In this document: piece by piece, positions 3,003-41,212 of the stretch
Layout of the letters: each line of letters opens with the position of its first letter
How positions within the stretch are numbered: position 1 is the first letter of the stretch
Assembly (NCBI GenBank): GCA_016781845.1
Contig: JADDPP010000104.1
Span: forward strand, 1-59,674
Reading direction: 5' to 3'
DNA: 59,674 bases
From: Rubrobacter sp.
GTDB taxonomy: Bacteria > Chloroflexota > Chloroflexia > Thermobaculales > Thermobaculaceae
Notes under the pieces: generated by a model
Database searches by the model: none
Told to the model about the DNA's origin: nothing
What the model saw: the letters and a program-made list of their open reading frames with translations, nothing else
Made by a program: the position numbers and the translations under genes

Positions 3003-4052
3003 TCAGCGCAGCCACGTCTGGATGATGACGCGAAGGAAGCCGAGCGGATACCCCAGCCGCTTCGGCTTCTTGCTCTCGCCTTCGGCGCGGCGAAGGATGG
3101 TCACCGGCACCTCAAGGATGCGTAGCTTCTTCTTCGCAGCCTCCAGGATGAGTTCGGCTGTGCTGAAACGGTCCTCGCGCAGTTCGAGCCTTTCCAGAGC
3201 GCTGCCGCGGATCGCGCGGTAGCCGTTTGTGGAGTCCGTTATCCTGACGCCGCTGAGCACGGAGATGAGCCGTGAGAAGAACAGTATGCCTGCGTGCCTG
3301 GCGCCTCCCGCTTCCTCGTACTCTCCGAGGAAGCGGGACCCCATGACGAAGTCCGCCTCGTCACGGACGATGGGGGCGATCAGTTTCTCCAGTTCTTCCG
3401 GCTGGTGCTGGCCGTCCGCGTCCATATTTACTACTATCTCAGCGTGCTGCGCGCGCACTATCTCGAAGCCCGTGCGCAGGGCGTCTCCCTGCCCACGACG
3501 GAGGATGTGGGTGGCTACTGGGACGTTCAGGGATGTGGCTACGGCTTCTGTCGCATCCGTCGCGCCGTCCACCACGACAAGCGCGTCAACGGGGAGCCCG
3601 CAGATCTGTTGCGGTACGCGGGATAGCACCCCAGGTATGGCGTCCTGCTCGTTATATGCCGGAATGATGATGAGGACCTTCCCACGCAGCTGCGTGCTTC
3701 CCTCAGGGCTGGAGGGACCAAACCGCTCCTGGTACTGCCGCCTTGCGATGGCGCGCACTATCTCGCCGCTCCTGCGGCTGCTTGCCCGCACCTGACCGAG
3801 CAGATAGAAGACGAGACCAAAGAGGAGCAGGTTCGAGAACACGAGCAAGGCAAGCAGCCGGTTCTGCAAGCGGAACAGTGAAGTGAGGAGCCCACCAACT
3901 CCCGGATATACGGATACGATGGCGATGCCGCTTGCGATCAGCAGATTGAGCAGCAAGTCCGACTTCGCCCAACGCCCTCCGCGATACTTTGAGATGCCGT
4001 ATGCTGCGAACGCCACGGCAACGAGCACGCCGATCAGTCTAACGTTATCCAT
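3003..4052 (-). CDS. DUF2304-GT2 fusion glycosyltransferase
   Basis: This 349-residue protein has two parts. Residues 1 to about 90 hold three hydrophobic helices that match the small DUF2304 membrane family. From about residue 125 a family-2 glycosyltransferase follows, of the dolichyl-phosphate-mannose synthase type: PAYNE at 131-135, VDGATD at 161-166, and the metal-binding DADGQH at 211-216, then FVMGSRFLGE and TNGYRAIR. It probably transfers a nucleotide-sugar unit to polyprenyl phosphate at the inner membrane. DUF2304 genes often sit next to such transferases as separate genes; here they are one chain. AGGAAGTGG precedes the ATG and a TATACT -10-like box lies at about 4088-4093 upstream. 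Confidence 0.88.
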   Translation of the reverse strand: MDNVRLIGVLVAVAFAAYGISKYRGGRWAKSDLLLNLLIASGIAIVSVYPGVGGLLTSLFRLQNRLLALLVFSNLLLFGLVFYLLGQVRASSRRSGEIVRAIARRQYQERFGPSSPEGSTQLRGKVLIIIPAYNEQDAIPGVLSRVPQQICGLPVDALVVVDGATDATEAVATSLNVPVATHILRRGQGDALRTGFEIVRAQHAEIVVNMDADGQHQPEELEKLIAPIVRDEADFVMGSRFLGEYEEAGGARHAGILFFSRLISVLSGVRITDSTNGYRAIRGSALERLELREDRFSTAELILEAAKKKLRILEVPVTILRRAEGESKKPKRLGYPLGFLRVIIQTWLR

Positions 4053-4168: not shown

Positions 4169-4178
4169 GGCTGCTCCC
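4169..4178 (+). repeat. Target-site duplication, left copy
   Basis: GGCTGCTCCC lies immediately outside the left inverted repeat of the MITE and recurs exactly at 4330-4339 outside the right one. A 10-bp direct repeat flanking inverted ends is the expected mark of transposition. Confidence 0.75.
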
Positions 4179-4329
4179 CAGGGCGATTTCAAAGTCAGCA
4201 TGGGGGACCAGCGCCTCCCACTTCCGCCAAGTGTCTGGTGGTTACATCAGCGGATAGAAGGGAGATCGGGCGTAGAGACGTTGCACGCAACGTCTGCGCG
4301 GCCACCATCGGCGACTTTGAGATTGCCCT
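4179..4329 (+). mobile_element. 151-bp MITE with inverted ends and 10-bp target duplication
   Basis: The element begins (C)AGGGCGATTTCAAAGTC (4179-4196) and ends GACTTTGAGATTGCCCT (4313-4329). The two 17-base ends match at 15 positions as inverted repeats. GGCTGCTCCC flanks it directly on both sides (4169-4178 and 4330-4339). Inside lies the palindrome AGACGTTGC-AC-GCAACGTCT at about 4276-4295. It carries no ORF and so must be moved by a transposase encoded elsewhere. It lies between the GT2 operon and the DUF2723 gene. Related copies are at 31197-31277 and 41099-41212. Confidence 0.82.
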
Positions 4330-4339
4330 GGCTGCTCCC
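4330..4339 (+). repeat. Target-site duplication, right copy
   Basis: GGCTGCTCCC directly follows the right inverted repeat of the MITE and matches the copy at 4169-4178 at all ten bases. Confidence 0.75.
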
Positions 4340-4473: not shown

Positions 4474-6054
4474 CTACGTCTCACTGAACTCACGACAATC
4501 AGGACTATCCGCCGGGGGGATACGGGGCTGCGCTGCTGGCTGCTGAGCAGCTCTGCTGACGCTCCAAAGACCGCGCACCCGCCGCGTCGGGTACTGATCG
4601 TGGAGCACCGCGGCATATTCCGGGCGCCCGAAGTCCCGGTAGAGGAGAAAGACCTTGCGGCCCGAGCGCAGGTCCTGCTCGAGACGCTCACGGACATTTT
4701 CGGGGGTAATCTGGCAAACGCCGAGGTCCTGCCTGCGGCGCTCCACGTGGTCCAGGTAGTCGAGGGTGGGGGTGAACCGTGTGTCATATAGAAGTGCGCC
4801 TTGCGGAAGCGCGACCACTCGCTCGATCTGCCGGCGCGCAATCAGGTTTTCACTCTGGTCCACAGCGGTCAGGTTCCCCCGCCAGCTCAGCCCTGCGTCC
4901 ATCAGCAGTACGACGCCGAGTAGAACCATGGCGGCCCGCCGCGCCTGCGAACTTCGAACCTCGCGGAGAAAGTCCAGGATCGCTCGCACGCCAAACGCGC
5001 TCCACACTGCCAGAGAGATGTACGTCGGGATGAAGTAGGCGTTGATGTCTGATATGTCGTACTCCAGCGCGTAAGCGAGCTGGCCGGTGAAGAGAGCTGC
5101 CAGGAATGCCGAGGCAGGGTGATCATGGCGAAAGCTCCAGAGTATCCCGACCAGCGCAAGAGGGAGCAGGAGCAGCGCGCCCTGGAGCCTCAGATCGGCC
5201 CAGTACAGTCCGAGCCGCTCTGGCAGCTCGCCCGGCCCGAACGCGAACATTCGGTCGGCGAACTGCCGACCTGTGACGAGGTAGAAGAACCTTTCCGGGG
5301 TGGACGGGTCGGTGTAGTTCATGGGCGGGTTCATCGAGGCGCGGATGGGAAGGTATGTGTATGGCAGCAGGCCTAGCGCGAAGAGTGCCGCCCCCTTCAG
5401 CGCCAGCCGCCAGTCCCTCAGCCGGCGGAGATCCGTCATCGCGATCCACAGCAGTCCCAATGGGATGAGCAGCCCGCTCGTCGCATGGTTCGTGAGCGAC
5501 AGGCCGCAGAGGAAGGCAGCGGCAAGCAGGTAGCGGTCGCGCCTCGTATCGCGCCACACCGCGAGCGCGAGCATCACCGCGCAGATAAAGAGGGCGTGGA
5601 GTGTGTACACCTCCGCGATGACGGCTTGCGACCAGTACGTTCTGCTCAGTCCGAAGCTGGCTGCGGCGACGAGCGCCGCGGGCACGCTCGCGGTCAGACG
5701 TATCGTTACGAGGTAGAGGAGGCTGACGGCCAGGGCGCCGTACACGGCCGACGAGAGGTTCACGCGGTATGCTACATCGCCCACCGGAAGGTACGTGAAG
5801 AGCTTGCCGAGCATGATGAAGGTGGGGTATCCCGTTGCATGGCCGATGTCGAGGGCGTACGCGCGCGCCTGGAAGCGACCCGGGTCACCGGGCAGCACCG
5901 TTGGCGCCAGTGTCAGGAGGTAACAAGCCAGGGTCGCGAGTCCGAGGAGCACTGCACCCAGCAGAGTGCTCAGCCGGCGATGAGTGGCGATTCTCGCAGT
6001 GCTAAGTGCCGCAGTGCTGTGACTGACGGTGTTCGTCGCGGTGCGCGCGTTCAT
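4474..6054 (-). CDS. DUF2723 family GT-C-type membrane protein
   Basis: A 526-residue protein with about ten or eleven transmembrane helices in its first 400 residues and a soluble C-terminal part. After the first helix comes the family signature TLAPTVLPGDPGRFQ (Asp at residue 57), followed by GHATGYPTFIMLGKLF; the acidic residue in the first extracytoplasmic loop corresponds to the catalytic position of GT-C transferases such as protein O-mannosyltransferases. It therefore probably uses a polyprenyl-phosphate sugar on the outer face of the membrane. Its ATG directly abuts the stop codon of the upstream gene (6055), so the two are translationally coupled. The acceptor is unknown. Confidence 0.85.
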   Translation of the reverse strand: MNARTATNTVSHSTAALSTARIATHRRLSTLLGAVLLGLATLACYLLTLAPTVLPGDPGRFQARAYALDIGHATGYPTFIMLGKLFTYLPVGDVAYRVNLSSAVYGALAVSLLYLVTIRLTASVPAALVAAASFGLSRTYWSQAVIAEVYTLHALFICAVMLALAVWRDTRRDRYLLAAAFLCGLSLTNHATSGLLIPLGLLWIAMTDLRRLRDWRLALKGAALFALGLLPYTYLPIRASMNPPMNYTDPSTPERFFYLVTGRQFADRMFAFGPGELPERLGLYWADLRLQGALLLLPLALVGILWSFRHDHPASAFLAALFTGQLAYALEYDISDINAYFIPTYISLAVWSAFGVRAILDFLREVRSSQARRAAMVLLGVVLLMDAGLSWRGNLTAVDQSENLIARRQIERVVALPQGALLYDTRFTPTLDYLDHVERRRQDLGVCQITPENVRERLEQDLRSGRKVFLLYRDFGRPEYAAVLHDQYPTRRVRGLWSVSRAAQQPAAQPRIPPADSPDCREFSET

Positions 6055-31134: not shown

Positions 31135-31196
31135 TGCGGGCACGCTCACCGCATAGCACGCGAAGGGGCAGAGAGAGCAAGGGACGGCGAGACAAC

Positions 31197-31277
31197 CGTA
31201 GAGACGTTGCACGCAACGTCTGCGCGGCGTCCGCGCAAACTGTCCACGTCCACGAATAGCGACCTTGAAATAACCCT
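31197..31277 (+). repeat. MITE-related repeat, copy B
   Basis: The 26-base core CGTAGAGACGTTGCACGCAA-CGTCTG (31197-31222) is identical to the core inside the MITE at 4179-4329. GACCTTGAAATAACCCT (31261-31277) corresponds to its right inverted end. I could not find a matching left end or target duplication, so this copy looks truncated. It lies between the convergent oxidoreductase and DUF503 genes. Confidence 0.7.
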
Positions 31278-31297
31278 GCGAGCCCCTGGAACGCGCA

Positions 31298-41098: not shown

Positions 41099-41212
41099 AG
41101 GCCATTTTCAAGTTGCTGTGGGGGGGAGCGTCTGCCCAGACCCCTGCCAGACGTTGCGTGCAACGTCTCTACGGTCGTGATCCCGCTCAACTGCTGGTCA
41201 TGGGATCGCCCT
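41099..41212 (-). repeat. MITE-related repeat, copy C, inside the his gene run
   Basis: The 26-base core is present in inverse orientation at 41148-41173 (CAGACGTTGCGTGCAACGTC...) and is an exact reverse complement of that in copies A and B. AGGCCATTTTCAAGTTG (41099-41115) corresponds to one end of the MITE. GGTCATGGGATCGCCCT (41196-41212) ends in the same eight outer bases as the other. No target duplication is visible, so this is an old copy. It lies between hisA and hisF. Confidence 0.65.

Follow-up and report, generated by a model that had tools for sequence, protein, structure and literature searches.

An intact MITE between two genes of the same strand

The window, the whole stretch of 59,674 nucleotides analysed here, is contig C331 of a 3.58-Mb assembly in 502 contigs. 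Between two genes of its minus strand lies a full-length MITE of 152 bp (4179-4330, plus strand; CAGGG...CCCTG), recognised from its inverted ends and flanking direct repeat and from BLAST and body-model matches. The MITE is intergenic, 126 bp upstream of the start of a DUF2304/family-2 glycosyltransferase gene (3003-4052, minus strand) and 143 bp downstream of the stop of a gene for a TMEM260-like (PF11028) membrane protein (4474-6054, minus strand), both named from Pfam. It has no coding capacity of its own, the open reading frames across it being spurious overlaps. As no promoter or terminator was predicted at the MITE, we claim no effect on the neighbouring genes. Among the relatives searched, none has both neighbouring genes together, and there was no synteny for an empty site.

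The left inverted end, CAGGGCGATTTCAAAGTC (4179-4196, plus strand), and the right end, GACTTTGAGATTGCCCTG (4313-4330; listed on the minus strand as CAGGGCAATCTCAAAGTC), are identical at 16 of 18 bases, which extends the 15 of 17 matches given by the original prediction. That prediction also described a 151-bp element with a 10-bp repeat directly outside each end. A single intact element and a flanking repeat are indeed present, GGCTGCTCCC occurring at 4169-4178 and again at 4330-4339, but the tenth base of the repeated GGCTGCTCCC is the MITE's own terminal G. Because this last G (4330) is the partner of the C that opens the left end, we take the element to be 152 bp long and the target duplication 9 bp, with copies of GCTGCTCCC at 4170-4178 and 4331-4339; duplications are also found at other copies of the MITE. 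Within the ends, the element consists of a left body (4197-4271, plus strand; about 79% column identity in an alignment of copies), a GTAG-headed hairpin (4272-4295) and a right spacer leading to the right end (4296-4312, plus strand). In alignments, this spacer varies in length from copy to copy through short CAACGTCTGCG-type repeats. Five copies have a variable number of these just after the hairpin, and this variation accounts for much of the difference in length between copies.

The end sequence was found three times in the window against 0.03 expected from shuffles (at most 3 mismatches), and the hairpin pattern three times against 0.00 expected. A second, left-truncated copy of the MITE at 31181-31278 (plus strand) retains the REP (as we classify the hairpin below), the right spacer and the right end (CAGGGTTATTTCAAGGTC on the minus strand); its hairpin is intact and its right end degraded. 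The third hairpin of the window, at 41149-41172 (minus strand), has its GTAG head as CTAC on the plus strand and showed no MITE part in our flank test. The whole-element model matches weakly there, the match resting mainly on the hairpin.

A family of dispersed copies

We used BLAST, a profile of the body without ends or palindrome, and the end sequence itself to follow the MITE through the genome. BLAST gave 57 matches and the body-only profile 73 places, while the end sequence occurs 47 times in forward and 45 times in reverse orientation (at most 3 mismatches), compared with none for a reversed-pattern control. We were able to delimit 24 full-length copies with paired ends, ranging from 151 to 278 bp. 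The search for other copies flanked by direct repeats that had been suggested in the original prediction was fruitful: 10 of the 24 show a duplication of 9 or 10 bp (at most 1 mismatch), against a mean of 0.35 by chance when right flanks are shuffled at random among copies. The remaining 14 have no clear duplication. Where the other MITE copies do have one, its most frequent length is 9 bp. Consistent with these paired ends and direct repeats, and as originally proposed, the window MITE is an intact non-autonomous transposable element, unable to move by itself.

The family comes in two forms. Short copies (mostly 151-184 bp), like the window copy, have one hairpin. The long ones (246-278 bp) contain a pair of oppositely oriented hairpins, with compensatory changes in the second (AGACGTAGC/GCTACGTCT). 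Hairpin aside, the family was present in the window's own genome and was not found in the relatives searched; a plasmid search with the MITE gave no match.

Evidence for an ISAs1-family parent

A non-autonomous element calls for a parent supplying transposase, and the original prediction placed such a parent elsewhere in the genome. The ISAs1 transposase model has no match in the window's own assembly, and the case for a parent in this genome therefore rests on fragments at contig ends. A variant end, CAGGGTCATGTCAAAGTC, is found at eight sites of the genome where the contig breaks off after a further 25-48 bp, and in each case it points outwards. The sequence that follows it at these eight contig ends is the left or right end of a 1207-bp ISAs1 element. 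We found that element by scanning GTDB genomes for CAGGGTCATGTCAAAGTC; it lies in the Chloroflexia MAG YX1bin4 (L124, 6744-7950), which we infer to be of the same family as the window's genome, and the eight contig ends are 92-97% identical to its ends over 25-48 bp. Its product matches NF033564 (ISAs1 transposase) with E=4e-40, the match in YX1bin4 spanning profile positions 42-288, the same positions as in the family member with which we tentatively equate this MAG, and also matches PF01609 (DDE_Tnp_1). Thus the same ends do occur on a transposase-bearing element, and the predicted type of parent exists. This particular copy carries a frameshift and lacks a target duplication, so it may not itself be active. 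We also found a truncated copy of the insertion sequence (IS) at C239:55313-55442, which is 77% identical over 130 bp to the first 130 bp of the L124 element. The IS bodies have apparently been lost from the window's assembly, collapsed as repeats at contig ends.

The duplications of the MITE, at 9 (9-10) bp, are in line with the ISAs1 elements of relatives. The intact ISAs1 elements found in the class have CAGGG ends, in some cases of the form CAGGG...CAAAGTC, and six of them have 10-bp duplications. Thermobaculum sp. LB3_1 and Chloroflexia YX1bin4 have related MITEs that share these ends and are flanked by 9-bp duplications. These comparisons support an ISAs1-family insertion sequence as the putative parent of the MITE.

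Other MITE families, of 154-174 bp (five loci) and 164 bp (two loci), were seen in Thermobaculum sp. LB3_1 and other Chloroflexia MAGs. Their ends are nearly the same ISAs1-type ends, and most have 9-10-bp duplications.

The palindrome is a GTAG-REP dispersed in its own right

The internal palindrome AGACGTTGC/GCAACGTCT (4276-4295) is perfect, as originally described, and is directly preceded by GTAG, so that the unit as a whole (4272-4295, plus strand) reads as a GTAG head followed by the hairpin AGACGTTGC-AC-GCAACGTCT. REPs are built in this way, with GTAG beside a short palindrome, and have dedicated transposases (REP-associated tyrosine transposases, RAYTs) that are themselves flanked by REPs (PMC2817692, PMC3733652). 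We classify the unit as a GTAG-REP from its conservation, its copy number and its retention of GTAG; the original prediction had not recognised the palindrome as a separately dispersed repeat of this kind.

In the alignment of MITE copies the hairpin is 98% conserved, compared with 79% for the body. Another way to view this conservation is through copies selected by their body, without reference to the palindrome. In 45 such copies divergence is 4.4% in the hairpin, 22% in the body and 18% in the ends; 27 of the hairpins are perfect, where the body divergence of the individual copies would predict 0.6, and 40 copies retain GTAG. Template-switch repair was considered as a sufficient cause of this conservation and rejected by reasoning, as it would keep the arms complementary and not identical to the consensus.

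The hairpin is also found well beyond the MITE. The genome holds 167 exact hairpins, often without any MITE; in other genomes of the class we counted 0-7, often different in sequence. We sampled the context of 59 hairpins in 424 kb of the genome, 51 of which are flanked by GTAG on one side or both. The MITE body was detectable at 27 and some part of the MITE at 36, leaving 23 without a detectable body, right end or long-form middle; the hairpin is also kept in copies whose ends are gone. We read the REP as a dispersed repeat in its own right, nested in an ISAs1 MITE. A literature search for the palindrome sequence returned one unrelated paper on a hepatitis D-like virus.

A RAYT-like gene bordered by the same hairpin

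Scans for RAYT and ISAs1 motifs covered 1.16 Mb of the 3.58 Mb, a portion holding 118 hairpin matches. Within it, the sole gene for an MPNHxH-type tyrosine transposase is L239 771-1508 (C335:771-1508). Its protein matches NF047646 (REP_Tyr_transpos) with E=9e-17 and 61.3 bits, and Y1_Tnp weakly. Because the NF047646 score falls below the curated NCBIfam cut-off of 80, we regard the name RAYT as probable, not certain. GTAG-hairpins border the gene on both sides, at 883 (5') and at 1509 (3'), and the TAG in the GTAG of the 3' REP doubles as the gene's stop codon; one hairpin lies within the reading frame. An imperfect copy at about 1540-1563 makes the 3' REP one half of an inverted doublet. Two opposite REPs at short distance were found only here, 3' of the RAYT-like gene, and in the long form of the MITE. 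The REP is probably the substrate of the resident RAYT-like protein, by which it would be cleaved or moved.

Explanations for the nested arrangement

We consider it very likely that the element is an ISAs1-mobilised MITE carrying a separately dispersed GTAG-REP, the latter probably a substrate of RAYT. An ISAs1-family transposase, acting in trans, would recognise the 18-bp CAGGG... ends, cut the MITE out and reinsert it elsewhere; a staggered cut of 9 bp (9-10) at the target would leave GCTGCTCCC duplicated. At the REP, RAYT would cut single-stranded DNA at the GTAG beside the hairpin. Such mobilisation in trans is what the sequences suggest, the MITE having its ends in common with an ISAs1 element. 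Many of the solo REPs could be remnants of decayed MITEs. A more elaborate version of this reading makes the MITE a composite, in which the ends answer to the DDE (ISAs1) transposase and a live REP core answers to the HUH tyrosine transposase (RAYT), such that REPs hitch-hike in MITEs while RAYT keeps the MITE cores intact. We put this forward tentatively, as a conjecture that is more likely wrong than right.

The principal challenge to the role of RAYT comes from the view that the hairpin is merely a part of the MITE, kept for MITE transposition (for example as a site for a host protein or the transposase), with solo hairpins being decayed MITEs and RAYT having no role. Such decay has a precedent in Coxiella, where the small copies of QMITE2 have been interpreted as truncated MITEs (PMC5896051), and the body (27/59) or some other part (36/59 in all) does accompany many of our sampled hairpins. 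However, 23/59 lack any MITE part, the hairpin persists where the ends are gone, and the RAYT-like gene has hairpins at both borders. GTAG is moreover kept together with the hairpin, as in REPs generally (PMC3733652). We therefore think this explanation unlikely, though it deserves to be taken seriously, and prefer the reading of a nested, separately dispersed REP.

Selection at the level of the transcript, with the hairpin acting as a terminator or an mRNA-stabilising stem, would fit the strong fold of the whole MITE on both strands (z of -6.1 and -5.1), yet scans gave neither a terminator-like site (there is no T run) nor an Rfam family. Across copies the fold of the body is not supported by covariation, pairing being confined to the ends and the hairpin, and what is conserved is the sequence itself and its GTAG, beyond pairing. 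An RNA element is accordingly improbable. We also rejected an RNA structure of the element as a whole, which is strong in the window copy but has no covariation across copies. The strong fold is also the one point in favour of there being no transposon at all, in which case the inverted repeat would be due to chance or the sequence would be one domain of a structured RNA gene. This is refuted by the dozens of copies dispersed in the genome, with their paired ends and direct repeats, and copy number and target duplications together leave it next to no chance.

Relation to known systems

Like other IS-derived MITEs, the family is short and non-coding, with IS-like inverted ends, target duplications and many diverged copies; it differs in that its parent is of ISAs1 type, and in the literature searched we found no description of an ISAs1-derived MITE. 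With ISAs1-family insertion sequences it has in common the CAGGG ends and the duplications, 10 bp in the relatives of the class and 9-10 bp in the MITEs, but unlike them it has no transposase gene. The known GTAG-REP/RAYT systems, or REPtrons (PMC2817692, PMC3733652), share the GTAG head, the short hairpin, more than 100 copies and a rayt gene bordered by REPs, and GTAG repeats have been reported in Chloroflexi (PMC2817692, PMC3733652). What sets the present case apart from them is that many of its REPs lie inside an ISAs1 MITE and that its RAYT-like gene also has a REP inside the reading frame. The combination of a MITE with a GTAG-REP has a precedent in QMITE2 of Coxiella burnetii, in which truncated copies are reduced to the REP (PMC5896051). 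QMITE2 is, however, unrelated in sequence and host, while the present family can be assigned to a parent IS type, its REP also flanks a RAYT-like gene, and its long form has two REPs in opposite orientation.

The significance of the family is that it links MITEs to their type of parent IS in a little-studied lineage of the Chloroflexota, and offers a well-populated case of a REP nested in a MITE. It also makes testable the question of whether REPs spread not only through their own RAYT but also as passengers of DDE transposons. Finally, three relatives of the same family contain several copies of a different palindrome, AGACGTTATATATAACGTCT, which may be another REP or MITE core.
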